Part shown: piece by piece, positions 1-36,870 of the stretch
Layout of the letters: the number at the start of each line of letters is the position of its first letter
How positions within the stretch are numbered: the first letter of the stretch is position 1
From: a virus
DNA length: 36,870 nucleotides
Reading direction: 5' to 3' (one strand)
IMG/VR virus record: IMGVR_UViG_3300044625_001023
Coordinates: 1 to 36,870 of that record
The notes under the pieces: model-generated
The model's database searches: none
Told to the model about the DNA's origin: nothing
The model's input: only the letters and a program-made list of their open reading frames with translations
Position numbers and translations under genes: made by a program

Positions 1-267
1 GAAAACTTTAACATCAAAATAAAGTACGAATTGATAGAGGACTACATTTCCATAGATGGCAGATACTTTGACGATCACTCGGAAGAAATAACAGTTATCC
101 TGGATGCAAAAGATTTCTACGGAGAGAGGGAAACATCTGACGGAGATGGTTTATACTTTGTTGACGAAGAGTTAGCCAATCAGATTGCTGAACAACTAGA
201 ACTTGAATTAACTAGTTCAAACTATGACTTATACTGGATGGCAGCAGAACATTTTAATAACGACTAA
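1..267 (+). CDS. Small acidic hypothetical protein, 3' part (joins the gene at the window end)
   Basis: The reading frame is open from base 1 (ENFNIKIKYE...), so the first internal ATG at 31 is not the true start. The last 148 bases of the window repeat bases 1-148, and the frame that starts at 36624 runs into this one. Across the closed circle the protein is about 121 residues, acidic and rich in aromatic residues. I see no recognisable domain. It is the second gene of the early operon that starts after the palindrome promoter at 36379. The two copies of the overlap differ by two amino acids (ERET-S versus EQET-F). Confidence 0.75.
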   Translation, partial: ENFNIKIKYELIEDYISIDGRYFDDHSEEITVILDAKDFYGERETSDGDGLYFVDEELANQIAEQLELELTSSNYDLYWMAAEHFNND

Positions 268-269
268 AG

Positions 270-509
270 ATGGGAGTGGATATTTTATACAGCGACTATG
301 ACCTGGATACTAAAACGTATAACTGCCAGGTATGGTATAAAGAGCATACTTTGTTTTTTGATAATATAGAGATGGATAACGAAGACATTGTTTACTATGA
401 AATAGTAGGATGCCAGGACGAGTATGAGTTTCCCGTTCACCTTCCTTTGAGCGACCACGAAAAAGCAATGTTGGTTTCCTGCATAGAGTTACACTTAATA
501 TTTTTATAA
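270..509 (+). CDS. Hypothetical small acidic protein (79 aa)
   Basis: The ATG at 270 lies two bases after the preceding stop, and the stop overlaps the next ATG (TAATG), so the gene is translationally linked in the early operon. The product is acidic with many Tyr residues (DILYSDYDLD near the start, YYEIVGC in the middle). I do not recognise a family. Such tiny early proteins often act on host functions, but nothing in the sequence shows this. Confidence 0.7.
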   Translation: MGVDILYSDYDLDTKTYNCQVWYKEHTLFFDNIEMDNEDIVYYEIVGCQDEYEFPVHLPLSDHEKAMLVSCIELHLIFL

Positions 510-712
510 TGAAAAGAAAAACTAAAAAGATGATATTGGATAACATATACATCCCTTATCCAAAAGAGAGAAAAGCAAACATTAAGCAAATGGAGAAGTG
601 GTGGACTCAACAATCCCTTCCTGGATACTGCCAGGATAAAGGCGGAAGTTTTAATATAAACCTCTACCTTGACTACCTTTCAGTTATAAACGAACAACCC
701 GATAGAAAATGA
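509..712 (+). CDS. Hypothetical small basic protein (67 aa)
   Basis: Starts in the stop of the previous gene and ends with an ATGA overlap to the next, a coupled arrangement. The N-terminus is Lys/Arg rich (MKRKTKKM), followed by a stretch with two adjacent Trp (KWWTQQ). No family recognised. Confidence 0.65.
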   Translation: MKRKTKKMILDNIYIPYPKERKANIKQMEKWWTQQSLPGYCQDKGGSFNINLYLDYLSVINEQPDRK

Positions 713-780
713 GTATATGTTTATGCCTGGCAGTTTTTATAATAAGTTTTTTTGTGATCTACAAAAACCTGGAAAGATGA
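709..780 (+). CDS. Mini-protein with one membrane helix (23 aa)
   Basis: ATG at 709-711 overlaps the preceding stop (ATGA), and its TGA at 778-780 overlaps the next ATG at 777 (again ATGA). The 23 residues run from MSICLCLAVF to VIYKNLER: an uninterrupted hydrophobic segment of about 17 residues followed by a short polar, basic tail. This looks like a single-pass membrane microprotein. The double ATGA coupling is the main evidence that it is translated; the gene is below usual length cut-offs. Function unknown; an early membrane-acting role is only a guess. Confidence 0.55.
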   Translation: MSICLCLAVFIISFFVIYKNLER

Positions 781-1028
781 AGAAAAGAAAAAAAGTAAAA
801 AGAGTTTTTGTTGACTTAGAGTATAAGGATGCCAAAGATTTAGTACGGACCCTGGATAGGCTAAAAGATGATATTTTGAGCGGAATAGAAAAACAAACTA
901 TAACGCATAAGTATATAGTTGGAGAGATGGAGTGCAGCCACAAGCAATGGTATGTTTTATCAAATCATTCCTACAAGGAGATAGCAGAGAGGGAAAGAAC
1001 TATCTTTGTAGTAAAATCTAATATGTAG
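777..1028 (+). CDS. Hypothetical basic protein (83 aa)
   Basis: The same frame can be extended to an ATG at 717, but the stretch 709-780 is better explained by the coupled mini-gene in another frame, so I place the start at 777 (MKKRKKVKR). The N-terminus is strongly basic and the middle looks helical (DAKDLVRTLDRLKDDI). No family recognised. Confidence 0.65.
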   Translation: MKKRKKVKRVFVDLEYKDAKDLVRTLDRLKDDILSGIEKQTITHKYIVGEMECSHKQWYVLSNHSYKEIAERERTIFVVKSNM

Positions 1029-1029
1029 A

Positions 1030-1320
1030 GTGCTTATAATCGAACTCCATAGAAAACAGTTACCTTTTGCGGTGATAGTAAGCGATGAGATATGTGGCAA
1101 AGTACACAGCATTCTCTACCGAGACAGATACCTCCGATGTGAGGAAATGGATAGGTACCAGGTTAGGTGGTTTTCAGATAACTCCAGGTATTTTAAAAAA
1201 GTCCTGGATAATAGCCACGGAAGAGTATACGAATATCGGAGGTTTAAGAAAAAGTTAAGCCAGGCGATAAAACATAATTTTTTAGTTAGAAATCAAATAA
1301 TAAAAGCAGGATACTTATGA
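1030..1320 (+). CDS. Hypothetical basic protein, GTG start (96 aa)
   Basis: Begins with GTG one base after the preceding stop; no in-frame ATG lies near. The product is rich in Arg, Lys and Tyr (YEYRRFKKKL near the end) and may bind nucleic acid, but no motif is visible. The stop overlaps the ATG of the next small gene (ATGA). Confidence 0.6.
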   Translation: MLIIELHRKQLPFAVIVSDEICGKVHSILYRDRYLRCEEMDRYQVRWFSDNSRYFKKVLDNSHGRVYEYRRFKKKLSQAIKHNFLVRNQIIKAGYL

Positions 1321-1493
1321 ACTTTAATACAGAAAAAAGAGCGAAGGAATTAAAAGCAGCCTCAAAGGATGCCGACAAAATAATTGCGGTAGTTATGGAT
1401 ATAGCGTTAGACTATATCAGCAACCCAAAGGATTGTTTAAACTTTATAAGGGAGGTAAGGAAAACCTACAAAAAAGCAGCAGAACAAAAATAA
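1317..1493 (+). CDS. Hypothetical small helical protein (58 aa)
   Basis: ATG at 1317-1319 overlaps the stop of the upstream gene (ATGA). The frame is open to TAA at 1491-1493 and encodes MNFNTEKRAKELKAASKDAD onward, mostly amphipathic helix with basic ends (KTYKKAAEQK). It is the last gene of the early operon; the promoter and hairpin at 1503-1608 follow it. No family recognised. Confidence 0.6.
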   Translation: MNFNTEKRAKELKAASKDADKIIAVVMDIALDYISNPKDCLNFIREVRKTYKKAAEQK

Positions 1494-1502
1494 TTTTATA
1501 CA

Positions 1503-1536
1503 TTTGCGTATGGTCTCACAAAATTGTTTATCTTTA
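1503..1536 (+). promoter_or_regulatory. Bacteroidota-type promoter upstream of the replication genes
   Basis: TTTG (1503-1506), a 22 bp spacer, then TATCTTTA (1529-1536), close to the Flavobacterium consensus TTG-N17-23-TAnnTTTG. The spacer contains GGTCTCAC (1512-1519), whose exact complement GTGAGACC lies at 1579-1586, downstream of the expected start of transcription. Confidence 0.5.
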
Positions 1537-2216: not shown

Positions 2217-3163
2217 ACGATGATTTAAAATACTTAATCGACTATCGGAGAGGAAAGATAGTTCGAGGTTTGGGGATAGGTTGCAGCCTGGATAACAATA
2301 TTGTTTTTAAAAGAGGGCAATTAAACATTATCCTGGGACACGATAACGTTGGGAAATCTTTATTTATAAACTGGTATTTTCTTAACCTGGCGTTAAAGCA
2401 TAATTTAAAATTTGTGATCTACAGTGGAGAGAACAAAACCGCTTACATTTTTAGGGATTGGATACAGATGTTGGCAGGGATGAGGTATAACGAATTGGGA
2501 GAATGCGATATAGTAGAACTATATGAAAGGATAAAAAAGCACTTTATTTTTATACCAAACGATAGGCTATACAAACCCCAGGACTTGTTTGAAAAGTTTG
2601 AGCAAAGCAAATGTGATGCGGCATTAATAGACCCTTTTACCGCCCTGGATAGAGAGATGTCCTACGATGGGAATTACCGTTTTTTAAATGCAGCCAGGGA
2701 GTTGGTTAACTATACTGGAATGACTCTATATATAAACACCCATCCAACAAGTGAAAGCGGTAGAGCAGGAAACTTATACGCTCCAGGGCACGAATGGAAC
2801 GGACACGTAAAGGCACCCCTCAAAGACCACGTAGAAGGAGGTAAAGCCTTTTTGAACCGCTGCGATGATATGTTTGTAATTCATCGCTTGGTCAAGCACG
2901 AAACAATGAAATACTATACAATGATAAATGTAGAGAAAATAAAAGATTTGGATACTGGAGGAAGGCACACTAATCTAAACGAACCTATCCTTTGCGAGTT
3001 TAATAATGGTTTAGGGTTTAAGATAGGCGGAGTTGACCCCCTTCAAAGCATAAGAGGAGAAATTAAAAAGGGCAGTAACTCATTTCCTGCACAAACTTCC
3101 TTTGATGATATATTGAGTTTTAGCGAAAAGATTAAAAGAATGAACGAGCAAAATAATAAGTAA
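2213..3163 (+). CDS. RecA/DnaB-fold ATPase, likely replicative helicase or loader
   Basis: P-loop GHDNVGKS at residues 42-49 after RGQLNIILG, and a Walker B-like strand CDAALIDPF at about 134-142 ending in Asp140. A further strand (MTLYINTHPTSE) fits motif 3 of RecA/DnaB-type ATPases. At 316 residues it is shorter than full DnaB and lacks the N-terminal primase-binding domain, resembling the single-domain phage ATPases of this superfamily. It overlaps the initiator-like gene by 4 bp, which supports a role in DNA replication. The exact subfamily was not determined. Confidence 0.8.
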   Translation: MNDDLKYLIDYRRGKIVRGLGIGCSLDNNIVFKRGQLNIILGHDNVGKSLFINWYFLNLALKHNLKFVIYSGENKTAYIFRDWIQMLAGMRYNELGECDIVELYERIKKHFIFIPNDRLYKPQDLFEKFEQSKCDAALIDPFTALDREMSYDGNYRFLNAARELVNYTGMTLYINTHPTSESGRAGNLYAPGHEWNGHVKAPLKDHVEGGKAFLNRCDDMFVIHRLVKHETMKYYTMINVEKIKDLDTGGRHTNLNEPILCEFNNGLGFKIGGVDPLQSIRGEIKKGSNSFPAQTSFDDILSFSEKIKRMNEQNNK

Positions 3164-3724: not shown

Positions 3725-4246
3725 ATGCCAAGGTGCAAGAATTGTAAGCAACCGTTTGAACCAGTTAGGTTCCTTCAAAAGTACTGCCTCCAGGAGGAGT
3801 GCGTTAAGGTTTGGGTGGAGCAGGTAAAAGCAGATGCCTGGAAGAAAACCAAGCAAAAGTGGAAAGTGGATAACGAAAAATTAAGTGATCTACTCCAGGC
3901 GGCACAAATTATCTTTAATCAATGGATTCGATTAAGGGATGCAGGGAGCGTTTGTATATCGTGTCAGAAACCTGCAAAAAAGGAGAACGCAGGGCATTAT
4001 TGGAACACCGCCTACCACCAGTCTGTTAGGTTTGATGAGGATAATGTGCACCTTCAATGTGAGCATTGCAACAACTCAAAGCACGGAGACCTGGCGAATT
4101 ATCAAATTCATTTAATTTCGAAAATAGGGCAGGAGAGATTTGACTCCCTCCAGGCTAAAGCAAAGCAAACAAGAAAGTTCTCCAGGGATGAGGTGCAGGA
4201 AATCATTAAAAGATACAAGACGGAAATAAAAAAATTGAAAAAATAA
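3725..4246 (+). CDS. ninG: NinG/Rap-like recombination nuclease
   Basis: The layout matches the lambda NinG (Rap) family. An N-terminal zinc-finger-like part has Cys at 4, 7, 21 and 26 (CKNC, CLQEEC). A helical linker follows, then a central HNH-like core with CISC, AGHYW, RF, HLQCEHCN and a Tyr/Leu-rich end. Lambda Rap acts on Holliday junctions and related branched DNA. The length (173 aa) is close to the usual size. It probably works with the ERF protein and exonuclease encoded further on. Confidence 0.85.
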   Translation: MPRCKNCKQPFEPVRFLQKYCLQEECVKVWVEQVKADAWKKTKQKWKVDNEKLSDLLQAAQIIFNQWIRLRDAGSVCISCQKPAKKENAGHYWNTAYHQSVRFDEDNVHLQCEHCNNSKHGDLANYQIHLISKIGQERFDSLQAKAKQTRKFSRDEVQEIIKRYKTEIKKLKK

Positions 4247-4297: not shown

Positions 4298-4318
4298 CAC
4301 AGAAATAAAACGATAAAT

Positions 4319-4736: not shown

Positions 4737-5171
4737 ATGGGAACGATAAAAAGATACGAGATACGCAAAGCGGCTACCGAATTTGTAAAAGAAAAGATAA
4801 CGAGCGGTGCGGAGGCTGCACATTATATCCGACAGTTTTATGGGGATGACCTGGAGGTATACGAATCCTTTTTTATGCTTATGTTAAACAATCAACTGCA
4901 AACTGTTGGGTATGCTAAAATAAGCCAGGGAGGAATTGTTGGAACGATAGTAGATAAAAGAATAGTTTTAAAATATGTGGTTGACTGCCTGGCTACCAAT
5001 GTTATCCTGGCACATAACCATCCAAGCGGCACGTTGCATCCAAGCGAGAGCGACAAGAAGATTACCCAGGAGATAAAGGAACTCTGTGCTATAATGAACA
5101 CTACCGTTGTAGATCACATAATTTTAACGGCAGATGAGTTTTACTCCTTTGCATCAAACGACTTACTATGA
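4737..5171 (+). CDS. RadC-like JAB/MPN-domain protein
   Basis: Contains the full JAMM/MPN+ metal-site signature HNHPSG...SESD: His93, His95, Ser97 and Asp106, with a conserved Glu at about 43. This matches the RadC-type JAB domain, here without the N-terminal helix-hairpin-helix part of chromosomal RadC (144 aa versus about 220). Such stand-alone RadC domains are common in phages and mobile elements; their substrate is not settled (peptidase or DNA-linked roles). Overlaps the next gene by 4 bp. Confidence 0.88.
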   Translation: MGTIKRYEIRKAATEFVKEKITSGAEAAHYIRQFYGDDLEVYESFFMLMLNNQLQTVGYAKISQGGIVGTIVDKRIVLKYVVDCLATNVILAHNHPSGTLHPSESDKKITQEIKELCAIMNTTVVDHIILTADEFYSFASNDLL

Positions 5172-6205: not shown

Positions 6206-6209
6206 AGAG

Positions 6210-6959: not shown

Positions 6960-7520
6960 ATGAAAAATCTAATTAAAGCACTGGCAGACTTTCAGCAAGA
7001 AGTTCCAGTAATTCACAAGGCAACGCAAGGGTATGGATACTCTTACGCAGATTTGCCGACCATCTTTTCGGTGATCAATCCGCTACTTAAAAAACACGGA
7101 CTTGCCTTCACGCAGCCGTTAGGTTCAGAGGGAGGAATAACTTACCTTGAAACTATAATCTTTCATATAGAGAGCGGTGAGCGGATGAGTTCAAAAGTTG
7201 AGGTGCCACGGGTTTCCCTGGCAAAGATGAACGACTACCAAGCAATGGGTTCGGGAATAACTTATTTTCGCAGGTACTCCCTGGCTAGTGCCCTCAACTT
7301 AATAACTGACTTGGACACAGATGCAGCAGGGGAGCAGGTAAGAAAACCAAAGAATGAAGAACCTCAAAAAGTAACGCTATCCACAGCACAATTTAATGCC
7401 CTGGTAGGTGCTATCCAATCGGGAACTTTAAATAAAGAGGGAGATGTTTATACGGTAGCGTATGCAGAGCAGCACTACAAGTTATCAAAGGAGCAATTAA
7501 CAACTTTAAAATCTTTATAA
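6960..7520 (+). CDS. ERF-family single-strand annealing protein
   Basis: Shows the ERF superfamily pattern: YGYSYADLPTIFSVINPLLK near residue 25, GLAFTQPLG, a central SGERMSSKVEVP, then QAMGSGITYFRRYSLASAL followed by an Asp-rich tail (LDTDAAGEQ). ERF proteins anneal complementary single strands in phage recombination and genome circularisation. The exonuclease encoded next forms the expected partner, as in other annealase plus exonuclease pairs. First gene after P3. The C-terminal 60 residues vary between homologues and may bind partners. Confidence 0.92.
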   Translation: MKNLIKALADFQQEVPVIHKATQGYGYSYADLPTIFSVINPLLKKHGLAFTQPLGSEGGITYLETIIFHIESGERMSSKVEVPRVSLAKMNDYQAMGSGITYFRRYSLASALNLITDLDTDAAGEQVRKPKNEEPQKVTLSTAQFNALVGAIQSGTLNKEGDVYTVAYAEQHYKLSKEQLTTLKSL

Positions 7521-7521: not shown

Positions 7522-8256
7522 ATGAGTAAGCATCAATGGTTAGTAAGACCTTCACAAATGGGAGCGTTAATGACTGGAGGCAGAAAAAAGGATGAACTGT
7601 GGGGTGAAACCGCCCTTACAGTTATCCAGGAGGCTGCACTTTTTCACAAATACGGAATTGAGCCAGGGGAGATAATAAGTCCTAAAATAGAAAAGGGAAT
7701 AATGAACGAGCGGCAGAATATAGAGTTGGCGTCAAGAGTCCTGGGGTGGATAGATGTTGACCCCGATGCTCCAAAAGTGAGATTGGTAAACGATTTCATC
7801 ATAGGAGAACCCGATGTTAACAGCAGCATCCTGGCAGATATAAAAACCAGTTGGACTGCGAATACCTTCCCTTGGTTTAAGAATCCTAACAATAAAGATT
7901 ACTTTTACCAAATGCAATGTTATATGTGGCTTACTGGAAAGCAACAAGCAGAGTTAGTATACTGTTTGAGCAACCACCCCCCACATATAATAGCAGCAGA
8001 GATTAAACGCTTAACATACTACTATGCGGATAGACCGTTTTTGTTCCAGGATGCTAATAGCATTGACGAACTTTGGACTTATGCAGAGAAGAAGGCAGAA
8101 ACAGTGGTTATGGTAGAGGCGAGCGTAGATCACATTCCCGAAGAACGCAGAGTTAAAAGATTTATAATCGAAAGAGACGAGGAGGCAATCGAAAGCATCC
8201 AGGAGCGTATAACTCAAGCGAGAGTGAAGTTTGATGAATATATGAATGAAATATAA
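7522..8256 (+). CDS. PD-(D/E)XK exonuclease (YqaJ/lambda-exo-like)
   Basis: 244 residues following the annealing protein by one base. Nuclease core signs: Glu in the helix KGIMNERQNIEL (about residue 60), GEPDVNSSILADIKTSW with Asp and the D-I-K dyad (about residues 93-112), and YFYQMQCYMWLTG with the conserved Gln in the following helix. This matches YqaJ-type/lambda-exo-like alkaline exonucleases, which resect double-strand ends to supply single strands to the annealing protein. The C-terminal 50 residues form a charged helical tail. Confidence 0.88.
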   Translation: MSKHQWLVRPSQMGALMTGGRKKDELWGETALTVIQEAALFHKYGIEPGEIISPKIEKGIMNERQNIELASRVLGWIDVDPDAPKVRLVNDFIIGEPDVNSSILADIKTSWTANTFPWFKNPNNKDYFYQMQCYMWLTGKQQAELVYCLSNHPPHIIAAEIKRLTYYYADRPFLFQDANSIDELWTYAEKKAETVVMVEASVDHIPEERRVKRFIIERDEEAIESIQERITQARVKFDEYMNEI

Positions 8257-10054: not shown

Positions 10055-11593
10055 ATGATAAATGAAGTTCACATTAAAAAAGTAAAGGCTAACGCCAAAA
10101 ACCCTCGTATAATCAAAGACGAGAAGTTCCGCCAATTAGTTAGAAGTATAGAGAGGTTTCCCGAAATGCTATACAAAAGACCGTTGATAGTTAGTTCCAT
10201 CAAAGGAGGAAACTACGAAGTGCTTGGTGGAAATATGAGGTTGGCAGCATTGCAGCATTTGGAAAGAGAAATGGTACCAGTTATCCTGGCAGATGATTGG
10301 TCGGAGGAGCAGAAAAAAGAGTTTTTGATTGCCGATAACGTAAATTACGGAATGTGGGATTGGGATGTCCTGGCAAATGAGTGGGATGTAGAAGACTTGG
10401 AGCAATGGGGGTTGGAAATGCCTTTTATTGATAGCGGAGCATTTGGAGAGCCTACAAGCATCCAGGGAGAGCCTGGAGAGGTTTACGAGGCAGAAGTAGA
10501 GCAAAGAGTTCACTCGTCCTTATCGGATAAATTTATAGTTCCACCCTTTTCTGTTTTTGATACTAAACAAGGATATTGGCAAACAAGGAAAGCGGAGTGG
10601 AAAGGGTTAGGTATTCAGTCAGAGATTGGCAGAGGCGGAAACCTTTTAAATTATAGTGAGACAATTCTCCAGGCATCAAACCCAAAGAAAAAGTTAGCGG
10701 AGATTTTAAAAGGCAACAGTCCGAATACCGCAAACATAGAAAGTAAGATACCAAACTATTATGCAAAGAAGGAGCAGGGTTTGACGGATGCTGAAATCAT
10801 AAAGGAATTTATTGAGAGTAGCGAGTTAAGTGGAACGAGCGTCTTTGACCCAGTTCTTTGTGAGATTTCTTACCGATGGTTTTGTAAAGAAGGCGGTACC
10901 ATACTTGACCCTTTTGCAGGTGGCAGCGTTAGAGGTATAGTAGCATCCAAGGTAGGAAGGAATTATATTGGTATAGATTTGAGAGCGGAGCAGGTAGAGG
11001 CTAACAAAAAGCAAGTGCAAGAAATATGTGTAGATCACTTGCCGCAATATTTTGTTGGTAGTTCGGAGCAGATGAGTGGAATGTTAAACTCATTGGATGA
11101 GAAACCTACCGTTGATATGATTTTCACTTGCCCTCCTTACTATGATTTGGAGCAATATAGTGAAGACCCCCAGGACTTGTCAGCGATGGCACACGAGGAG
11201 TTTGATAAGGTATACGAATATATTATCCAGGAAAGTATTAAAAACCTGGCAGACGATAGTTTTAGCGTTTATGTTGTTGGGGATGTTAGGGACAAGAATG
11301 GCGTATACCTGGACTTGATAGGAAAAACGGTAGAGGCACACCGCAAAGCAGGAGCGGTTTACTATAACAGTGCAATCCTTTTGGAAAGCGTTGGTACAGC
11401 AGGGTTGAGAGCAGCCAGGATATTTAACGGAGGTAGAAAGTTGTGCAAGGTGCACCAAAACGTTTTGGTTTTCTATAAGGGCAATATTGCTAATATCAAA
11501 TCAAAGTTTGGTGAATTAATCAACGATATTGATGAGGTGGAAGAGATGGAGCAACCTATAACAAGCACTTTGAATTTAGCAACAGAAATATAA
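10055..11593 (+). CDS. ParB-domain/DNA methyltransferase fusion (N6A or N4C type)
   Basis: Residues 1-130 form a ParB/Srx-like nuclease-type domain, with the signature LGGNMRLAAL at 57-66. A middle section (KFIVPPFSVFDTKQGYW, 159-175) is typical of phage ParB-methyltransferase fusions. The C-terminal half carries methyltransferase motif I ILDPFAGGS (283-291), the acidic SAM contact IGIDL (305-309) and motif IV TCPPYYD (358-364). Motif I precedes motif IV. The CPPY form fits N4-cytosine or N6-adenine methylation of DNA. Such fusions usually lack a partner restriction enzyme and protect phage DNA. First enzyme of a three-gene locus; its target is unknown. Confidence 0.85.
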   Translation: MINEVHIKKVKANAKNPRIIKDEKFRQLVRSIERFPEMLYKRPLIVSSIKGGNYEVLGGNMRLAALQHLEREMVPVILADDWSEEQKKEFLIADNVNYGMWDWDVLANEWDVEDLEQWGLEMPFIDSGAFGEPTSIQGEPGEVYEAEVEQRVHSSLSDKFIVPPFSVFDTKQGYWQTRKAEWKGLGIQSEIGRGGNLLNYSETILQASNPKKKLAEILKGNSPNTANIESKIPNYYAKKEQGLTDAEIIKEFIESSELSGTSVFDPVLCEISYRWFCKEGGTILDPFAGGSVRGIVASKVGRNYIGIDLRAEQVEANKKQVQEICVDHLPQYFVGSSEQMSGMLNSLDEKPTVDMIFTCPPYYDLEQYSEDPQDLSAMAHEEFDKVYEYIIQESIKNLADDSFSVYVVGDVRDKNGVYLDLIGKTVEAHRKAGAVYYNSAILLESVGTAGLRAARIFNGGRKLCKVHQNVLVFYKGNIANIKSKFGELINDIDEVEEMEQPITSTLNLATEI

Positions 11594-11600: not shown

Positions 11601-12719
11601 ATGAACAGTTGGCAGCAAGGTTACGACCTGGAACTCTTAAAAGGATTAAAAAAAGTAGTTCAAAAAGATTATAAACCGTATGTTTTCGGAGCGTTTGGGA
11701 TGCCTAACGAACGAGATATAGCAACAGCATTATCAAAAGGGCAGGTATTAAAAACTAAAGAGAACGATACCCTGGCTATCTACCAACAATATACTTCCAA
11801 GAGCAGAGTAACAGACTTTACTCAAAATTCTTTTAGTATCCTTCCTGGATGGACTTTTATTAAGCACATAGCAGGAGTGCAGAAAAAAAAGATATTAGAG
11901 TACTTTGTTGATAATGTTAAAACCCCTCTTTTGATTGAGATATTTGACGAAGATAAAGCGGTAAGGGATATAGTGGAAGGATTGGGTTTTGAGTATATAA
12001 CAACCAAGATAGCAGCAAGTAGCGACCTTAAAGGAATATACGGATTGAGGCTAAACGCTAACTATACCCTTGCTCCAGGAGAGGAAATAAATATTAAAGA
12101 GATAGACCCCCACTTTCTAACTCCAAGTGATCTACAAAGCATAAAGCAAGAGTTAGAGCAGTTCACCAGTTGGGAAGACCATTACAGCACTTATAATAAA
12201 AGGCAAAGTTGGAGTGCCTTCGCTATAAGAGGGTATGACCAAAACAATCCTAACTTTATAATCAAGCCTACGGAGATGAGCCAAAAGTGGAAACAAGAAA
12301 ACGCCGAAAGATTGAAGGATAAAAGTGGGTGGACTAATGCGGTAGATAAGTTTCCGCATACCCGAAAGATAGTAGAGAGTATGTTCCTGGGGAGTGCTCC
12401 AGATAGGGTTAGGTTTATGAGATTAACCAAGGGCAACGGAGAACTATCACGCCACGCAGATATAACGGACAAGGAGGCAGGAGTTCAGCCAGGGAAGTCG
12501 GTAAGGCTGCACATTCCTATCTATACCAATCCACAAGTTATCTTTAACTCCTGGACTCATAAGGGAGAGAGAAGTATTGTTAATATGACGGAAGGAAGTT
12601 TATGGTACTTGGATACGAGAAAACCGCATACCGCAGTAAATAATGGAGATAGGGATAGAGTTCACTTGGTTATGGACTTTTTTGTTTCGGATGCGATGTA
12701 TAAAAAAATGATTGGATAG
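11601..12719 (+). CDS. Two-domain protein: GNAT-like N-terminus plus Asp/Arg-hydroxylase-type 2OG-Fe(II) domain
   Basis: The C-terminal part (about 260-362) matches the aspartyl/asparaginyl (Asp_Arg) hydroxylase fold of 2-oxoglutarate-Fe(II) oxygenases: RFMRLTKGNGELSRHAD gives the H-x-D pair His285/Asp287, then VRLHIPIYTN, the distal His343 in KPHTAVN, and Arg353 in DRDRVHLVMD for 2-oxoglutarate. The N-terminal 150 residues end in a GNAT-like pattern (IVEGLGFEYITTKI...GIYGLRL), a weaker call. It lies 7 bp after one methyltransferase gene and ends next to the other, so oxidation or further modification of methylated bases in DNA is a plausible role. A protein substrate cannot be excluded. Confidence 0.7.
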   Translation: MNSWQQGYDLELLKGLKKVVQKDYKPYVFGAFGMPNERDIATALSKGQVLKTKENDTLAIYQQYTSKSRVTDFTQNSFSILPGWTFIKHIAGVQKKKILEYFVDNVKTPLLIEIFDEDKAVRDIVEGLGFEYITTKIAASSDLKGIYGLRLNANYTLAPGEEINIKEIDPHFLTPSDLQSIKQELEQFTSWEDHYSTYNKRQSWSAFAIRGYDQNNPNFIIKPTEMSQKWKQENAERLKDKSGWTNAVDKFPHTRKIVESMFLGSAPDRVRFMRLTKGNGELSRHADITDKEAGVQPGKSVRLHIPIYTNPQVIFNSWTHKGERSIVNMTEGSLWYLDTRKPHTAVNNGDRDRVHLVMDFFVSDAMYKKMIG

Positions 12720-26100: not shown

Positions 26101-27418
26101 GGATTTGGAGCGGCAAGTTGATAAAGAGTTTGATTACCAACAAAAACAGTTGGAGGAGTATGGTGTTTTTGAGACTAAAAAACTAAACGAATTGATTAAT
26201 AAACGAGCAGATGCGGAGGTAGATTACTTGGATAAAAAAGGTAAGTACGAAAAGGAGGCGTTGGACAGACAGTATGATTATGAAATGAAACAACGAGCAC
26301 TGGCACTGGCAAAAGAAAAAAGTGATCTACAAGCAGATGCCGAGGAAACGTTAAAAGACAACTTGGAGGCGGCAAAAGGGAACGCAGGTAAAACGGCGGA
26401 GGCAAATAAAATGCACCAGGACGCAATGGCAAAGATAGACGAGAATTATCGAATAAGATACCAAGAACTTGATGACGAGGAGGCAAAAAGATACGCAGAT
26501 TTACAGTTAGAAAAGGAGGGTGTATCCAAAGAAACCAACAAAGAAATTGCAGATGTAAACCGTAAAAGAGTTGAGGATATTACCAAAATGGAGGAGGAAC
26601 TAACAGACGACTACCTGGCAAAGATGAAAGAAAAGGAGGACAAAGCGGAGGAGGATAGATTAAAAAAGTTAGCGGATAGAGAAAAAGCCAAACAAGATTT
26701 TGCGAAAATGACAGCCGATTGGTTAATTAAGCAAAGCGAGAGGATTGTAGAGCAGTTAGACAAAGAGATAGAGGCAGCAAGGAAACAAGCCGATATGTTG
26801 CGAGAGATGGCACAAGAGGGCAATATAAACGCACAGCAATCGATTGCAGAGCAGGAGAGATTAATCGCAGAGGCTACAAAAAGAAAAGAGCAGGAGTTAC
26901 GCCGACAGCAGCGTATAAGATTAGCGGAAACTGTTTATACTACCTATTCTCAAAAAGTAGAGGCAGGGAGTAAAAACCCCCTGGCTGAAACTATAAGAGA
27001 TACAACCCTACTCCAGGCGTTTATTAATTCGCTCCCAACTTATGAAAAGGGAACGGAGGATACTGGCAGGGATGGAAAGGGTGTAGATGGTAAAGGTGGA
27101 ATGTTATCGGTGCTGCATCCCAACGAAAGAGTTATACCAAAAACCCTAAATCAAAAAATAGGAAATATGTCCAACGAGCAACTAGCAAAAATCGCCCAGG
27201 AGTATAATACTAGTTCGGTTATGAGGTATAAAGGACAAGAGAGTAGTCTTGACTTTGCCCTTTTGGTGTCTGAAATGAAAGATTTGAAAAAGGAAATAAT
27301 TAACAAGCCAGTGACTAATGTTGAGTTAGGAAGGATAACGCAGAGTGCTATACAGATAGTAGAAAAAACTCAAAAAGGAAACTCCATTATATACAACCGA
27401 TATAAAGTAAGAAAATGA
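23150..27418 (+). CDS. Tape measure protein
   Basis: 1422 residues, the longest gene. Residues 1-210: coiled coil rich in Lys/Ala/Glu. About 215-510: TP901-type tape-measure core (GTALAGAFGVTVGLQGFVNL, LGATTAKTALETAQLQEAYA, SAGISFDRMLALLGKLSDAG, AGNLKGIDDLESAINNSAGA). About 640-745: hydrophobic segments (ILGVVYKIARAWVAYKAVTL and SIGWMVIISALIEVATQW) that may enter the host membrane. About 780-1270: long charged coiled coil. The end (DFALLVSEMKDLKKEI) probably meets the tail tip. It sets tail length and helps DNA entry. Confidence 0.93.
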   Translation: MAKKISSRDLFENEDIFKGIRDSAAKTLKSLDDMRAKLKLSAEALKKTIGGIKFGNTKEINKLLTSLEKINKLSKEAQAIDQMRRTTMSAKAKAEVELLAIEQQKQRVKQETLRTAKMEAQEEARLSKERDKAAKSAQNQASFYKQLEANTRELKNRSKELGAQMLSLEANGQKNTAAYRALAAQYKQVTAAAQQGDAKLKQLDKTVGDNFRNVGNYTQAVNNFGTALAGAFGVTVGLQGFVNLFKELTTTFMEFEFQSAVVASVLDKTSEETKALQENAKYLGATTAKTALETAQLQEAYARLGFSMQEILDMTQATINGSIAMNSNLADTAELTGAVVRSFEGYTSAMAPEIQDKMVAATQKSALSFQKLQTSIPIVAGAANSAGISFDRMLALLGKLSDAGIDASSSATSLRNIFIESAGQGLDYNTILEKIANSSDKLTMGFDEFGKRAAVASNVLAGNLKGIDDLESAINNSAGAAERAANNQLNTLQGRVTLLGSAWEGFLLSLEDGKGTMGMTARYLVDGFAEVLNIFAGTSSSIEQMRYESEKYYTAQLDNLTNLKRSKDDNYAATMKELKANLDAAKTENERLEIQRQIDQETKRYHATRDAIIKQQENLKKDTDIALQQREAAKSFAETLITILGVVYKIARAWVAYKAVTLTLLVIEKARTVQWRMMGQAIMAQIPMTRAYRLEQIQLARAQQGVATGTAAASTATRTFGRVIGSIGWMVIISALIEVATQWYNVASSTAEARRQADLYDARKEEISRRDDQRATKRSKDMQKELAELQRQRNEGKLTELEFREKTEKTNQKYLNQAKQDATTAQNLLTDYKARLEWVNEVLNDPNFDFQLTPQNIEWMQEQYKDFGFDSGTAWFGLLENANQGYYDLKDQFVGLIKAQEESVNRTQDEVEIMNEGYLDAASSVRSYGVEVKDHSGKIKSSLEANVVELKAYNTELDKVEKYLTRQVDLLYKIAESERKANIEDLERQVDKEFDYQQKQLEEYGVFETKKLNELINKRADAEVDYLDKKGKYEKEALDRQYDYEMKQRALALAKEKSDLQADAEETLKDNLEAAKGNAGKTAEANKMHQDAMAKIDENYRIRYQELDDEEAKRYADLQLEKEGVSKETNKEIADVNRKRVEDITKMEEELTDDYLAKMKEKEDKAEEDRLKKLADREKAKQDFAKMTADWLIKQSERIVEQLDKEIEAARKQADMLREMAQEGNINAQQSIAEQERLIAEATKRKEQELRRQQRIRLAETVYTTYSQKVEAGSKNPLAETIRDTTLLQAFINSLPTYEKGTEDTGRDGKGVDGKGGMLSVLHPNERVIPKTLNQKIGNMSNEQLAKIAQEYNTSSVMRYKGQESSLDFALLVSEMKDLKKEIINKPVTNVELGRITQSAIQIVEKTQKGNSIIYNRYKVRK

Positions 27419-29205
27419 AACACTTTTTAAACGGGGTAGAGATAACTCCCAGGAACAGAGACGAGATTGGAGTGGTAAGCAACTTTACTGGTGATCCAAA
27501 CGAATTAAGTTTGTCGGTAGATAGTATAGTGCTCCCCAGGGAAGGTTACGAAATCATACAGCAGCATATTTTAACCAACGGAGTTTTTATTGGCATCCCT
27601 TATACCGTTGAGATGGATGGAGGGATAACCCTGGACTACTATGTTGACCTAACTGAAAAGCCAATTATTCGACAGCACGATTGCGAGGTAACAGTAAAGC
27701 GAAGGAAGGGAATTGACGACTTTATGGAGAAAGCAAGAGGTACTAGTTTTGAGTTGATGCGGTCAAAAGGAGTGCAGTTTAATATTAGGGTTTTGCCTTA
27801 TTTTGTTATTAAAGATAATATTAGCGAAACGCTCCTAACTATGTCGGTTTCTCTTTATGTTATAGGTAAGGAATTAATACAAGCAACGCAGGAACTTGTG
27901 GAGGCAATCAACGATTTAATAGAGGCATCAACTCCCATTCCAGGACTGGCACCTCCTGGAATTCCAGTTGTTTCGTTTAACGTTCCTGCAATTGTTCGTG
28001 CATCCCTTAACGTGCTTTTAAGAGCGGCATACCTTACCGCAATAGTTATTTTAATTACAAACCTGGCGTTGCAAATGTTTAACATTTTGTTCCCTCCAAA
28101 GCGGTTTTTAAAAGGCGTATATTTTTACGACCTTATGAAAAAGGGGTGCCAGTTTTTAGGGTATGATTTCCAGTCCTCGTTGATTTCGGAATCAAAAAGT
28201 TGGTTTTGTTTACCAGTTCCCTTAAAGGATGATAACGACAGTATTTTTGAAAAAATATTCGCAGAACTAGTTGCTCCTTTTAATAAGGGATACCCGACGG
28301 CTAGTGATACCGTTGGACTTTTTGGGAACTTCATAGATGAGGTTAAAAAAATATTCAACGCAGAACTTTTTATTTTGGGAAATGTAGTCCGCCTGGAGAG
28401 GAGAGATTACCAAGCCAATATTGCACCACAAGTTGTTCTTCCTGCCTTGTCGCTGCAATCGGAACGTGATGATGCTTATACCTTTAATACTGACGAAATG
28501 TGGAAAAGATACTACATAAAATATGCGTTAGATTTTACGGATTTGCATAGCGTAGAGGGACCCATTTATGAAATGCACGATGCAGAGTATTCCACAGAAA
28601 ATAGCGTAGCGGTTTCCGACCCATCCCTTGTAACTATAAAGGGATTGAATGAAGTACAAATAAATTTTAGCCTGGGAGCGAACAAAACAAGTTTAACCGC
28701 CCTGGAGTTCACTGGGTTGGTTTTCTTTGGCTTAATTGATGTTATAACTTTTGTATGCACCCTGGGTTTTGCAGGAACAAACTATGTTCAATTAATTACG
28801 GATAGATATGGAGCATTAAAAGTTTCACAGCAGTATTGGGGGATAACTAAAGCGATATACGTAAAGAACGCAGGAATTAAAAAAGTGCAGGGAACAGAGT
28901 ACCCACAAGTTCTTTTTGATGGAGATTACAGAACGGTGCAGAGTGCAGCCAACCTGTGGGATAAATTTCATTACATAGAGGCGATTGATAAAAACGATTT
29001 TATCATAAAGGAAAATGTTCGATTCAGATTAAGAGCGAATGAGTTTGTATCTTTGCTGAATAGTAACTACGCCTTGATAGATGGAAAGGTGTGCGAGTTG
29101 TTGAGGATTGAGTGGATTGATGAAAAGAGCAACGCCAACATTTCCTATAAGGAGCCGTTAGATTACGCAAATGGAAAAGTAAACATAATAAGAGTAGACC
29201 AATGA
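27415..29205 (+). CDS. Tail-tip/distal tail protein with hydrophobic segments (596 aa)
   Basis: ATG overlaps the tape-measure stop. Position directly after the tape measure fits a distal-tail or hub protein. The N-terminal part (FLNGVEITPRNRDEIGVV...) is beta-rich. Residues about 197-225 are a strong membrane-like helix (AAYLTAIVILITNLALQMFN) and about 433-453 a second (LVFFGLIDVITFVCTLGFAG). Membrane-type helices in a tail protein are unusual and could help cross the envelope at DNA entry. No family assigned. Confidence 0.7.
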   Translation: MKHFLNGVEITPRNRDEIGVVSNFTGDPNELSLSVDSIVLPREGYEIIQQHILTNGVFIGIPYTVEMDGGITLDYYVDLTEKPIIRQHDCEVTVKRRKGIDDFMEKARGTSFELMRSKGVQFNIRVLPYFVIKDNISETLLTMSVSLYVIGKELIQATQELVEAINDLIEASTPIPGLAPPGIPVVSFNVPAIVRASLNVLLRAAYLTAIVILITNLALQMFNILFPPKRFLKGVYFYDLMKKGCQFLGYDFQSSLISESKSWFCLPVPLKDDNDSIFEKIFAELVAPFNKGYPTASDTVGLFGNFIDEVKKIFNAELFILGNVVRLERRDYQANIAPQVVLPALSLQSERDDAYTFNTDEMWKRYYIKYALDFTDLHSVEGPIYEMHDAEYSTENSVAVSDPSLVTIKGLNEVQINFSLGANKTSLTALEFTGLVFFGLIDVITFVCTLGFAGTNYVQLITDRYGALKVSQQYWGITKAIYVKNAGIKKVQGTEYPQVLFDGDYRTVQSAANLWDKFHYIEAIDKNDFIIKENVRFRLRANEFVSLLNSNYALIDGKVCELLRIEWIDEKSNANISYKEPLDYANGKVNIIRVDQ

Positions 29206-29429: not shown

Positions 29430-31692
29430 CGCATCCCTTACGGGTGCCCTTCCGATAACCTTTTTAAAATCTAACGCAGGTGATACAGAGGTTGCGGTTA
29501 TAGATATTGTGGAGGAAATAAGCGTAGCCAGTGGCAGCAATATATTAAGCCACAACGCTGCACAAAAAACTATATCCTGGGGAAATGGAAACTTTTTAAC
29601 GGAGGGTTTTCGTCCTGGAGATGGAGTAGAAATAACAATATACGATAGTGTAGGAGCAGTTGTAAGCCAGGTAACAAGAACTTTAAGTGCGGTGGATGCC
29701 ACGTTTATTGTTTATTCGGGAGCGGTTATAACTTGGTTTGATGGAGCAGCAGGGCAAACAATAGAAATCTTAATTGACAGCAAAGGAGGAACTGTAAAAA
29801 GAACTGGTTTGCTCCTGGATATTAACCATATTCCAAACTCGTCAAGCGGCACCGAATTTAGTTTGATAGATGGAGAAGTTACTAGATTTTCTTTTGATGT
29901 AACTGGTACTGTTTTTAATCAAATTGTGCCAGGAGTGCAGGTCGGTTTAAAGTCGGGACAGTTTGTTTCTTTTGCCAATATCCAGGATAAAACCAACTAT
30001 ACAACGAGTCCAGACAGACGCTCGTATCGAATAACGATAGCAACTATACAAAGTGGAGTTTATGATTCTTCATACTTTAGTTTCTCTAATTGCTTAAAGT
30101 TATTTATAAAACAAAACTGGCAGAGGGATGTCGGAGACCCCAATAATATGTTGCAGTATGCTATTGGCGACCAGGCGGATACGGGGTGGTTTGACGAGGC
30201 GTTTAATACTGGCGTTATAAATTCATCTTTGGTTCAAGGGATACCGATATTAGATTATTTTGCACCAACTAGCGGACAAATTTCTATTGATTACGCACCT
30301 GGACAGTTCTTTTTTGGAGCGGCATACGTGCCAACTGACGAGGCATATTTTAAACAGCAGCCTTTTAATCAGTCTCAACTTTCAATGATAGCACCAAGCC
30401 AGGGAGCAGGAGTTTATCCTTTGACTTTTTCAACTGCATACGCCAATCCAAGTGGGGGAGCATTTTCGATAACTATAAGCAACCCAGTAACGGTAGGAAC
30501 GATAACAACTTTTGACTATACATTTACTCCCAACTTACAGTTTGCGGCTTTTATAGAAGGCAGAGCGGAGGACGATAGACTGTTTAGGTTTTGGGTAAAA
30601 GCAGGGAATGTGAATTGGTTGCTTTTCAATAATCAACTTACTAGAGAGCCAGAGCCAGGAACACCCCTAAACGTGGTTGTTTCAAACTTCCAAGACCACA
30701 GTGAGAATTATACCGATACGCAAATTACCCAGGCAGGGTTCCAGGGAAATGTAGAGGACGACCTCTCCTTTATCGGAAAGTTTATTGTTCCTTTTGGGAC
30801 GATTATAGATAGCGTTACCGCATCCCTGGAGGCGTATAACACAGCAACGGATGAATCTTTTGTGCTGCAAAGTTCTACCTTTGATTTTAGCAGCGTACCG
30901 TTAGTTTTTGGAGCGTATCCAATTTCGCAGCAGCAAACAATATTTAACTTTCTCCAGGATACTAACGTTAAAAAAGTAGCAGAATTGGTAAGGGATAGCG
31001 GTGTAGATACTGCAACTGATTATGGGTTTAGGATACACTTCCCTATGGTATACAGATGGGAGTATTGGATACCGCAGCCTAACGCAAACGCAGAGTTTTA
31101 TCCTAATCAACAAACCCAGGATTGGGTTCCCTATGGAACAACTACAAACTGGGAGTTGAGGTTTAAACTGGCATCCTTGGAGCAGGGAGTAGAACACGAA
31201 TACCAGGAAACTATTATAATCAAAAACTATGACAGCGACCAGTATATCGACCAAGATATTACTCTAATAAGAGATTTGGATAACACCCAAGTATCGGTTA
31301 TCATAGAAGGGGAGATTATGAGAGTTGTGGCTACGCATACGCTAAATAAACCACTGGAGAATTGGATAGAACCGAGCGTGTGGGGAATGATCACCGTAGA
31401 GCCAAAGGAGGCAGGACCTCGTTGGGATTGCAGCACTGTGGTTCCTTTTGATAACAACCCGCTTAATCCTTTAACTCCTTTGAGTGGAAGTTTTTGCGAC
31501 CTTACATTTCCAAGTCCAAACGTTGCCAGGATGGAGTGTTTTTTTAACTCGAATAAAATAAATTTAGAAAAAGGAGTTAAATTTACAACAAAAATAAAAG
31601 GCTGCAAATATCAAATAACTAAAAATATGAAATTGTTGACCGATAACCAGGTTAAGTTAACTACTGGCGGTCTACCAAAACTGTTAGGATAA
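29398..31692 (+). CDS. Large tail/baseplate structural protein (764 aa)
   Basis: ATG 29398 (MPVIAITKGYNASLTGALPI) is preferred over 29374, which would overlap the upstream gene more. Mostly beta-rich with repeated Gly/Asp/Asn segments and few charged helices, as in baseplate or receptor-contact proteins. The C-terminus carries a Cys/Lys patch (KGCKYQITKNMKLLTDNQVK). CCWGG stays frequent up to its last part (31647) and then stops for about 1.9 kb. Confidence 0.65.
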   Translation: MPVIAITKGYNASLTGALPITFLKSNAGDTEVAVIDIVEEISVASGSNILSHNAAQKTISWGNGNFLTEGFRPGDGVEITIYDSVGAVVSQVTRTLSAVDATFIVYSGAVITWFDGAAGQTIEILIDSKGGTVKRTGLLLDINHIPNSSSGTEFSLIDGEVTRFSFDVTGTVFNQIVPGVQVGLKSGQFVSFANIQDKTNYTTSPDRRSYRITIATIQSGVYDSSYFSFSNCLKLFIKQNWQRDVGDPNNMLQYAIGDQADTGWFDEAFNTGVINSSLVQGIPILDYFAPTSGQISIDYAPGQFFFGAAYVPTDEAYFKQQPFNQSQLSMIAPSQGAGVYPLTFSTAYANPSGGAFSITISNPVTVGTITTFDYTFTPNLQFAAFIEGRAEDDRLFRFWVKAGNVNWLLFNNQLTREPEPGTPLNVVVSNFQDHSENYTDTQITQAGFQGNVEDDLSFIGKFIVPFGTIIDSVTASLEAYNTATDESFVLQSSTFDFSSVPLVFGAYPISQQQTIFNFLQDTNVKKVAELVRDSGVDTATDYGFRIHFPMVYRWEYWIPQPNANAEFYPNQQTQDWVPYGTTTNWELRFKLASLEQGVEHEYQETIIIKNYDSDQYIDQDITLIRDLDNTQVSVIIEGEIMRVVATHTLNKPLENWIEPSVWGMITVEPKEAGPRWDCSTVVPFDNNPLNPLTPLSGSFCDLTFPSPNVARMECFFNSNKINLEKGVKFTTKIKGCKYQITKNMKLLTDNQVKLTTGGLPKLLG

Positions 31693-33506: not shown

Positions 33507-34664
33507 ATGTCTTGTTTTCAAATAGAGTTTGCTAAAGATGGAAACCCAACGTTAACTTTTAACCTGGACGCCTTTACCTCTTTAAATGGGTATGATGCCT
33601 ACCAGTTTACGTACTTTGGAACTACATACTTTATTTGGCACGATGCGATTGATAACTGGTATATAGGTCCGAATTTTAACAGCATAGTTGGAATAGTTGC
33701 CCTTTATAAAGCAAACACCGACCAATGCCCAACTGGGGGTGCTCCTCCCTGGGAGGCGACTACCCTGGATTTTTTAAAAACTTCGTGCCCTTGTCCACAA
33801 GGCGTTGAATGTGATGTAGAGGATAGGTGGCAGCAGGAGTTTAAAAGCATAAAGTTACCCAAGATATGCCAGGAGGAGAACAGAGGAATAACAGACTGTT
33901 GTTGCGAGTATCTTATTTTTGTAGATGGTGGAACAACATCCTGGAAAAACGATAAAACTAGTGCCTGGATAAAGGTAAGTGATCCTACGGACTTGTTCTT
34001 TTTTCGTTTGTATAAAAACAATCAACTTACCGCTTTTCAACCAACCGCTCAACCCTTTATAAATGAGCCTAACGCATATTTTTGCACGATAGATTGGAAT
34101 GCAGTATTTGCCAGTGGGGACGGTCCTGGATGCTATGAGTTGAGAATTGACTATAACATAGCAGGTATAACGGGAGGCTACACCTGGGGAGTTTACAAAG
34201 TATATCCGTTCACTATCCAGGATGCAGTTGCAACAGCCAGGGTAAGAGCGGAGTTTGACGGATACCACGAGATAGAGGGCATTAACTTTACTGGCAGCGG
34301 AGTTGTTACCGATTTAAGATTTAGAGGCTATATTGGAAACCGACAACCAAATATGGAGATTGATAATATTATATACTCCAACAGAGAGATGAAAAGGGTT
34401 ATACGTGAAAACCTTAACTCCTACGAAATCATAACAGACCCATCCCACAAGTGCATTACTCAACCTATGATAGATTTAATTCTTTTAAGCGAGAACAATC
34501 TATACATAAGCGATTATAACGCTCACAACCACGATTACTGCCTCCAGGATAAACCAGTTATCGTAAAAGAAAGTCCAGAGGTGGAGTACTATGATTTTAG
34601 CAGGAAGGCAAAAGTTACGTGTATAGTAGAGGATAAATTTAAAAACAAAAGAACTTATTATTGA
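33507..34664 (+). CDS. Tail structural protein (385 aa)
   Basis: Beta-rich, with Cys clusters (KTSCPCPQGVECDVEDRW and ITDCCCEYLIF). CCWGG reappears from 33563 in this gene, so the import boundary lies near its start. Probably a baseplate or side-fibre protein by position between fibre and lysis genes. No family recognised. Confidence 0.6.
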   Translation: MSCFQIEFAKDGNPTLTFNLDAFTSLNGYDAYQFTYFGTTYFIWHDAIDNWYIGPNFNSIVGIVALYKANTDQCPTGGAPPWEATTLDFLKTSCPCPQGVECDVEDRWQQEFKSIKLPKICQEENRGITDCCCEYLIFVDGGTTSWKNDKTSAWIKVSDPTDLFFFRLYKNNQLTAFQPTAQPFINEPNAYFCTIDWNAVFASGDGPGCYELRIDYNIAGITGGYTWGVYKVYPFTIQDAVATARVRAEFDGYHEIEGINFTGSGVVTDLRFRGYIGNRQPNMEIDNIIYSNREMKRVIRENLNSYEIITDPSHKCITQPMIDLILLSENNLYISDYNAHNHDYCLQDKPVIVKESPEVEYYDFSRKAKVTCIVEDKFKNKRTYY

Positions 34665-35832: not shown

Positions 35833-36123
35833 ATGGCAAAGCAGAAAAAAAATATTAAAATTGATGCCGAAGTAGATGGTAACAAATTGCACATTTCAAA
35901 AGATGAAAATGGGGTGGATGTGATCTACGATGGTAAAAACAGAGACGTAGAAATTCACAAAGACGATGAAGAAAAACGATTCAAGTACGATGGTAAAAAG
36001 TTGGACGTTGAAATAAAAAAGATAAATAACGAAACTACGGTAGAGGTAAAAGCGGAAAGCGGCATACTAAAAACAGTAGGAAAAATTTTGACAAAACTTG
36101 TTTTGAAACGATTTAAAAAGTAA
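35833..36123 (+). CDS. Small protein with cationic amphipathic C-terminal helix (96 aa)
   Basis: The first 75 residues are short charged beta repeats (GNKLHISKDENG, DVEIHKDDEE, KLDVEIKKIN). The last 20 residues, ESGILKTVGKILTKLVLKRF plus KK, form a cationic amphipathic helix typical of membrane-active peptides. Last gene of the lysis cassette, before the terminator. A third lysis factor acting on the outer membrane is possible (compare the disruptin idea for phage phiKT gp28), but this is inference. CCWGG is absent here. Confidence 0.6.
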   Translation: MAKQKKNIKIDAEVDGNKLHISKDENGVDVIYDGKNRDVEIHKDDEEKRFKYDGKKLDVEIKKINNETTVEVKAESGILKTVGKILTKLVLKRFKK

Positions 36124-36158
36124 ATTTGTAGTGATTGATTTCGCTTGTTTTATTGTTT

Positions 36159-36192
36159 AACCCTCTTTTTTGTGCGAAAGGAGGGTTTTTTT
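36159..36192 (+). terminator. Rho-independent terminator after the lysis genes
   Basis: AACCCTC (36159-36165) pairs perfectly with GAGGGTT (36181-36187), then a T-run (36186-36192). Ends the late transcript. Lies in the ~300 bp gene-free stretch 36124-36427, which also holds repeat A and promoter P4. Confidence 0.8.
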
Positions 36193-36207
36193 ATACCCTC
36201 ACGAAAC

Positions 36208-36300
36208 GCCCACCCAGTAAGGAAAACACGGTTCGTGAACTTTTGATGCTATGATATGTCAAAAGTATAAAACCTCGTATAACGCCTTAAAACACCTAAT
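36208..36300 (+). repeat. Intergenic repeat, copy A
   Basis: GCCCACCCAGTAAGG (36208-36222), AAAACACGGTTCGT (36223-36236), TTTTGATGCTAT, AACGCC, CACCTAATAC: the same block order as copies B and C. CACGAA (36200-36205) pairs with TTCGTG (36232-36237), so the core can form the loop of a hairpin in RNA or single strand. Within the gene-free stretch between late terminator and P4. Confidence 0.65.
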
Positions 36301-36378
36301 ACTATAAAATCATATTTTGACATTTTTGCCTGGATGAGTTATTAAAAACAGCCTCTTAATAACTTTTTTTATGTGTTC

Positions 36379-36410
36379 TTTGCTTATATGAAAACATATA
36401 TCTATCATTG
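36379..36410 (+). promoter_or_regulatory. Early promoter P4 with palindromic operator
   Basis: TTTG (36379-36382), 20 bp spacer with TATATG-AAAA-CATATA (36385-36400), TATCATTG (36403-36410). Nearly identical to P3. Drives the first early operon, which crosses the window ends. Confidence 0.78.
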
Positions 36411-36427
36411 CACAAAGGTTTTTAGTT

Positions 36428-36613
36428 ATGAAAAATTACGAAGATTTAATTGGCACTCAAGTTAAGTGGCAAATCAAAGAAATGGAAATAAAAGGATTAT
36501 TTTTACAAGTGGTTGGAGATGAGGCAGAAGTGATTTGTTACTGGATGGGGTTTAAAAAATGCCACCTTCGACTTTTTATAAAACTGGAAATGATAGAATT
36601 TTGTAACCAATAA
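36428..36613 (+). CDS. Hypothetical small protein (61 aa), first early gene
   Basis: ATG 18 bases after the P4 -7 box. Contains KWQIKEMEIKGLFLQVVGDE and a Cys/Trp-containing IC-YWMGFKKC; no family recognised. As the first early gene it may act on the host at once after infection. Confidence 0.65.
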   Translation: MKNYEDLIGTQVKWQIKEMEIKGLFLQVVGDEAEVICYWMGFKKCHLRLFIKLEMIEFCNQ

Positions 36614-36623
36614 AAAAAATAAA

Positions 36624-36870
36624 ATGAAAAGAGAATTTAAAATCCTTGAGGCTGAAATCTTAAATCAAGACTCAAAAGAAAACTACCTTTTAATAGAGGA
36701 AGGAGAAAAACGTTTTTACATAGAAAACTTTAACATCAAAATAAAGTACGAATTGATAGAGGACTACATTTCCATAGATGGCAGATACTTTGACGATCAC
36801 TCGGAAGAAATAACAGTTATCCTGGATGCAAAAGATTTCTACGGAGAGCAGGAAACATTTGACGGAGATG
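36624..36870 (+). CDS. 5' part of the gene that continues at base 1
   Basis: ATG 36624 gives MKREFKILEAEILNQDSKEN onward. The frame stays open to the end of the window and is the same as that of bases 1-267 after closing the circle (offset 36,722). The start is 10 bp after the previous stop. Partial here only because the window ends. Confidence 0.75.
   Translation, partial: MKREFKILEAEILNQDSKENYLLIEEGEKRFYIENFNIKIKYELIEDYISIDGRYFDDHSEEITVILDAKDFYGEQETFDGD
36723..36870 (+). repeat. Terminal overlap: copy of bases 1-148
   Basis: 148 bases match positions 1-148 with three differences: 127 A versus 36849 C, 128 G versus 36850 A, 137 C versus 36859 T. All lie in the last 22 bases. The overlap indicates a circular or circularly permuted genome of about 36,722 bp; the differences point to strain variation or an assembly branch at the contig end. 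Confidence 0.85.

Follow-up and report, generated by a model that had tools for sequence, protein, structure and literature searches.

The GTGATC sites considered here lie in a 36,870-base virus sequence (IMG/VR record IMGVR_UViG_3300044625_001023, analyzed over its whole length and called the window below), and their closest described counterparts are the HIP1 and alternate HIP sites of cyanobacteria (GCGATCGC; PMC4390886). As described in that paper, these are GATC-containing motifs present in excess where GATC is otherwise generally low; they are tied to orphan methyltransferases, occur at a density near 1 per kb and show motif replacement between relatives. The model closest to the present case is Elhai's for HIP sites, a ratchet driven by methyl-directed repair that levels off at about one site per kb (PMC4390886). 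The window likewise combines an excess of a GATC-containing motif with low GATC overall. However, HIP1 is an 8-base palindrome of cellular genomes, whereas the window carries an asymmetric hexamer, with a nonamer form, in a 37-kb phage at one site per 1.75 kb, and the word "evenly" and words starting with "spac" are absent from the HIP paper. GTGATC is not a perfect palindrome; it may work like a HIP site, but we do not class it as one. A search of open-licence papers found no description of the combination of context lock and spacing reported below.

The record ends in a 148-base repeat of its start (145/148 identical), giving a unit of 36,722 bases, and genes for an HK97-type capsid, portal, terminase, ERF recombinase and NinG mark it as a tailed phage. 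The original prediction for this DNA was that GATC occurs only within GTGATC or its complement GATCAC, and a program count confirmed it: all 21 distinct GATCs (22 with the one at 36795, an end-repeat copy of site 73) have GT before or AC after, and the site at 21373 has both. By dinucleotide composition, only ~2.1 of 21 would be so flanked (P about 1e-21). The site list that came with the prediction was correct except for one coordinate, 35932, which is actually 35922, an error of ten. Against neutral expectations of 124 from a Markov model or 110.6 (standard deviation [SD] 7.7) from 200 synonymous codon shuffles, GATC is 5- to 6-fold depleted, and outside the GT/AC flank there are no copies where the codon shuffle predicts about 98. 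Each of the three codon phases is represented (12, 2 and 7 of 21), which bears out the further claim that the constraint ignores reading frame and acts on DNA, and the sites are oriented both ways (12 plus and 10 minus in the unit). The conclusion that selection on DNA, not on protein, shapes the GATC sites is therefore supported. Chance or coding constraint was rejected as the cause of the lock on the strength of the codon shuffle and the use of all codon phases, and an assembly artifact was rejected as well, the end repeat accounting only for the duplicate at 36795.

The surviving sites are also in excess. GTGATC-context sites number 21, compared with 12.4 (SD 3.3) in the codon shuffle, an enrichment of ~1.7-fold that is modest, the shuffle maximum being 22. 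The excess is far greater for the nonamer GTGATCTAC, the form taken by 10 of the 21 sites against 0.575 expected from the same shuffle, while each of its 27 single-base variants is present in at most one copy. Because the peptides encoded at these nonamers differ (SDL, CDL, VDH and VIY), GTGATCTAC is a DNA word. An excess of this kind, modest for GTGATC and marked for GTGATCTAC, is a feature of HIP sites, and the kept GTGATC sites are not just tolerated.

In addition, the sites are evenly spaced. Placed on a circle, the 21 sites are overdispersed (coefficient of variation [CV] 0.47; P 1.6e-4), with a smallest gap of 683 bases (P 4e-5), and the CV of GTGATC is the lowest among 397 hexamers of similar abundance in the window. 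No gene holds two GTGATC sites (P 0.001). Other depleted words of the window (CTAG, TCGA, ACGT and GGNCC) are not evenly spaced, and an unbiased scan for words both enriched and evenly spaced returned 201 of 3642 tests below 0.05, which is about chance, so even spacing is not a general property of enriched words. We also modeled thinning, in which starting sites were reduced until all gaps were at least 683 bases: 30 sites left 19, 40 left 22, and the neutral 12 left about 10. The 21 kept sites would thus require 30 to 40 starters rather than the 12.4 expected, and tolerance alone is insufficient.

Our preferred reading, to which we give a probability of roughly 40%, is that the GTGATC sites are modified, positively kept marks similar to HIP sites; their lock to one longer word and their unusually even spacing suggest protected marks rather than remnants. 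In this proposal, in which we infer the modification of the hexamer, the enzyme responsible and the purpose of the spacing, a sequence-specific DNA modification would act on GTGATC (best form, GTGATCTAC) during infection. All other GATCs would have been lost to a GATC nuclease encountered by the phage lineage, while the asymmetric hexamer, being modified, would be spared. The kept sites would be maintained at about one per 1 to 2 kb, each as a cis-acting mark reaching about a kilobase, in line with what has been proposed for methylated HIP1 sites. A positively kept mark would cover the lock, the spacing, the excess and the nonamer, whereas protection by modification, although plausible, would cover the lock only.

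A parallel case came from a scan for flank locks covering 183 sequences and 315 depleted-palindrome tests, in which the window ranked first and a relative, L071, second; L070, which overlaps L071, does not count as a separate case. L071 has GATC as GATCTGG in 11 of 11 cases and AGCT as GAGCTG[GT] in 9 of 9. Both words exceed the codon shuffle (GATCTGG, 11 versus 3.0; GAGCTG, 9 versus 3.1), and both are evenly spaced (P 0.0015 and P 0.0003, respectively). A single modification at the C of CTG would cover both words. Within L071 1-9494, GATCTGG and GAGCTG[GT] nearly alternate, and CTGCAG and ACCGGT likewise show strong enrichment; genes named there by eye are ParB-like, sugar epimerase-like and glycosyltransferase-like. 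It is possible, although we regard it as doubtful, that some phages share a HIP-like marking in which a lineage-specific, modification-coupled word on a restricted palindrome is kept about once per kilobase across the genome, as a cis-acting mark that might direct repair, serve recombination or license the DNA against a defence, and the palindrome is lost wherever it is unmarked, the examples being GTGATC[TAC] in the window and GATCTGG and GAGCTG[GT] in L071. Phage site avoidance is usually read as all or none, and flank-locked survivors would let modification specificity be read from sequence alone; such a phage would also provide a phage-sized test bed for why GATC-containing HIP sites accumulate in cyanobacteria.

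The window encodes two N6_N4-type methyltransferases (Pfam N6_N4_Mtase) (Table 1). The smaller, of 208 residues, has the class-beta motif order, with motif IV before motif I; its structural model (predicted local distance difference test [pLDDT] 87) matches known DNA methyltransferases of the N6-adenine and N4-cytosine kinds, among them the PDB matches TTHA0409, a bdelloid N4-cytosine enzyme, CcrM, PvuII and RsrI, and by fold and motif order it models as a class-beta DNA amino-methyltransferase. It is the first candidate for the GTGATC modification, a host enzyme being the alternative. To compare relatives, we kept as loci the best 80 of 176 stretches matched by a terminase search. The closest by terminase, L001, is 78 to 89% identical in DNA over most of 7.4 kb, has no GATC (24 expected) and hence no GTGATC; the five window GTGATC sites in the aligned part all differ in L001, two of them by a single core base, which shows turnover of the sites between close relatives. 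L001 retains the ParB-methyltransferase and hydroxylase genes but carries a threonine dehydratase-like gene (phrog_7093; 5983-6693) at the position of the small methyltransferase. The small methyltransferase and GATC are thus missing together from L001, a comparison that by itself favored this gene as the cause of the exemption.

Several observations weigh against a modified and positively kept mark. Loci L082 and L083, counted as one virus because their cassette genes are nearly letter-for-letter equal, were found by profile search to have a small methyltransferase 65% identical to that of the window in the same three-gene order, but they contain no GATC at all, GTGATC included (47 and 30 expected); at the window's density, L082 would hold about four GTGATC sites. 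The small methyltransferase was accordingly not supported as a sufficient cause of the exemption, and it would not suffice alone unless its specificity changed in between. Its motif IV also departs from the canonical (D/N/S)PP(Y/F/W): TSLPD in the window and L082, and TSPPE or TSPPD in two relatives. With TSLPD in place of the usual PP-Y, activity of the enzyme is uncertain; the TS-P pattern presumably leans toward an N4-cytosine enzyme. No MutH-like or other reader of a mark was seen among the proteins scanned, which were part of the window's open reading frames (ORFs), and in the ORF list of L071, a contig fragment inspected by eye without a family search, no methyltransferase was recognized. 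Furthermore, Croceibacter phage P2559S (L186), one of eight phages included because they carry a related ParB-methyltransferase, has 10 GATCs (70 expected) that lie no closer than 2,874 bases to one another (P 1.5e-4) and share no flank, so spacing is possible without the lock. Finally, after removal of near-duplicates left 108 loci, of which 67 were testable for GATC (many still related and not independent), GATC ranked first among 30 tetramers for evenness of spacing, with 24% of the 67 loci at P<0.05 compared with 0 to 11% for the other 29. This suggests that the cause of GATC evenness across phage loci is not special to this phage, and it speaks for an influence on GATC in general, for instance by two-site nucleases. 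Among loci L001-L190, the evenness of GATC holds also where GATC is not depleted.

The chief rival, which we hold to be possible though rather unlikely, is a two-site GATC nuclease of Type IIE, like Sau3AI, with poor cutting at sites flanked as GTGATC(TAC); such sites would survive when isolated and be lost when paired closely, with no need for methylation. PMC1892151 names Sau3AI, EcoRII and NaeI among the Type IIE enzymes, which require a second copy of the site. Selection by such an enzyme should work against close GATC pairs, and the sites of the window are indeed further apart than chance would place them. It would explain the even spacing seen in the window, in L071, in P2559S and, more weakly, in Listeria phage B054, as well as the rank of GATC among the tetramers tested. 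It would leave unexplained the excess of GTGATC, GTGATCTAC, GATCTGG and GAGCTG, since two-site cutting predicts no more sites than a neutral sequence holds, and an absolute effect from a two-base flank was judged unusual; we know of no report of Sau3AI sparing GTGATC. Even spacing points either to two-site restriction in nature or to a kilobase-range function of the mark.

Pure protection we consider unlikely: here GTGATC would be modified by a phage methyltransferase, all other GATCs would be lost to a host nuclease, and the spacing would be due to chance. The sharing of one flank by all 21 survivors of an avoided tetramer is what a protective orphan methyltransferase would be expected to leave, and the window resembles phages with orphan (multi- or degenerate-specificity) methyltransferases in having two N6_N4-type enzymes together with that shared flank. 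The joint absence of gene and motif from L001 fits as well, and exemption without even spacing does exist: in L087, CCGG occurs solely as CCCGG or CCGGG (24 of 24), a lock whose sites are not evenly spaced. What pure protection does not accommodate is the spacing (P 4e-5 to 1.6e-4) or the nonamer (10 versus 0.6), and L082/L083, with the gene and without the exemption, leave no one-to-one match between enzyme and exempted site. The halophilic archaeal virus HCTV-2 is a further difficulty: it has adjacent homologues of both methyltransferases (32 to 34% identical), yet no GATC (139 expected) and no AGCT across the 50,000 bases analyzed of its 54,291. The original suggestion that a phage methyltransferase exempts GTGATC by methylation is partly supported: it gains from the two methyltransferase genes and from L001 and loses from L082/L083 and HCTV-2. 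Protection of that kind would account neither for the evenness of the spacing nor for the lengthening to GTGATCTAC or the surplus of sites over neutral expectation.

Less likely still is that GTGATCTAC serves to bind a protein or to be nicked (in recombination, packaging or site-specific nicking) and that GATC avoidance elsewhere is a separate restriction effect. The strict 9-base form at 10 of 21 sites would suit such a role, and phages tf and Rembedalsseter carry a repeated 9-base nick motif in 14 and 13 copies, respectively (PMC3517423, PMC11780129). However, that motif is a different one, confined to one strand and unevenly spread, whereas the sites of the window use both strands and are evenly spaced; moreover, a binding site would not explain why every remaining GATC is confined to it.

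The remaining alternative, that the avoidance is tied to the cassette of ParB-methyltransferase and hydroxylase, for example through a phage nuclease or modification by which GATC, AGCT and CCGG become harmful, while one extra gene of this phage exempts GTGATC, is very improbable: AGCT, CCGG and non-GTGATC GATC are all absent from the window, L001, L059/L063 and L082/L083, which carry the hydroxylase cassette, and among terminase relatives for which enough sites were expected, GATC and AGCT are jointly close to zero in 3 of the 4 that carry the full methyltransferase (L059 and L063, two of these, being similar) versus 1 of 68 others, but HCTV-2 and P2559S have related methyltransferases and a different avoided set, and methyltransferase-rich phages may simply face more restriction. 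L084, which has a more distant hydroxylase (38% identical), does not avoid AGCT, CCGG or GATC. The cassette-bearing phages without GATC, AGCT and CCGG, apart from locked GATC, differ in G+C content.

The pressure against GATC that the original prediction ascribed to a host nuclease is likely, but it is seen as part of a wider avoidance of palindromes. AGCT, CATG, CCGG, CGCG, GCGC and GGCC are each absent from the window (46 to 100 expected), and CTNAG, GGNCC and GCNNGC are strongly reduced. The absence of six palindromes means that the phage avoids many restriction-type sites, and the pressures of this type that act on it are apparently numerous; the avoided set varies between relatives. The window agrees with known phage restriction-site avoidance in that short palindromes lie below what composition and codon usage predict, seven palindromic tetramers being either missing or far below expectation, but differs in that one of the seven persists, in just one asymmetric context and with mild enrichment and even spacing.

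The most enriched 5-mer of the window is CCAGG/CCTGG (225 versus 57 in the codon shuffle), and its one-base neighbors CCAGA, CCAGC, ACAGG and TCAGG are depleted. CCAGG/CCTGG is strongly enriched in L001 too and absent from L059, L063, L082 and L083. As CCWGG is not evenly spaced (P for the CV [Pcv] 0.99), this effect is distinct from that on GTGATC.

Table 1. Kept GATC sites and methyltransferase cassette genes of the window
Feature	Coordinates	Strand	Remark
GTGATC site GTGATCGTC	73..78	-	Duplicate at 36795-36800
GTGATCTAC site	754..762	+	
GTGATCTAC site	2414..2422	+	
GTGATCTAC site	3885..3893	+	
GTGATCTAC site	5109..5117	-	
GTGATC site	7071..7076	+	
GTGATCTAC site	8125..8133	-	L001 differs by one base inside GATC
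GTGATC site GTGATCTAA	9592..9597	-	
ParB_N + N6_N4_Mtase fusion	10055..11593	+	Also in L001, L059/L063 and L082/L083; more distantly in HCTV-2
GTGATCTAC site	11030..11038	-	Within ParB-methyltransferase gene
Asp/Arg beta-hydroxylase family protein	11601..12719	+	Between the two methyltransferases
GTGATCTAC site	12127..12135	+	
Small class-beta DNA methyltransferase (predicted), candidate GTGATC enzyme	12720..13346	+	Motif IV TSLPD, motif I DPFCG
GTGATC site	13676..13681	-	
GTGATC site	16228..16233	-	
GTGATC site	18280..18285	+	
GTGATC site	19268..19273	-	
GTGATCAC, both orientations	21371..21378	.	
GTGATCTAC site	22817..22825	+	
GTGATCTAC site	26322..26330	+	
GTGATC site	27491..27496	+	
GTGATC site	31389..31394	-	
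GTGATC site	33979..33984	+	
GTGATCTAC site	35920..35928	+	Misread as 35932 in the original prediction

A terminase search of bacterial genomes for the host gave two binned fragments only, in a Rhodobacteraceae metagenome-assembled genome (MAG) and a Prevotella MAG. A profile of the small methyltransferase matched none of 395 genomes of the phylum of one terminase-matched MAG at E 1e-10, in a search run with no positive control. The protein encoded at 27415-29205, used as a query, returned no close relatives, and a plasmid search found none. Lastly, a 34-base intergenic repeat, possibly a promoter or operator, occurs four times in the window, at 4266-4299, 5388-5421, 6900-6933 and 36379-36412.

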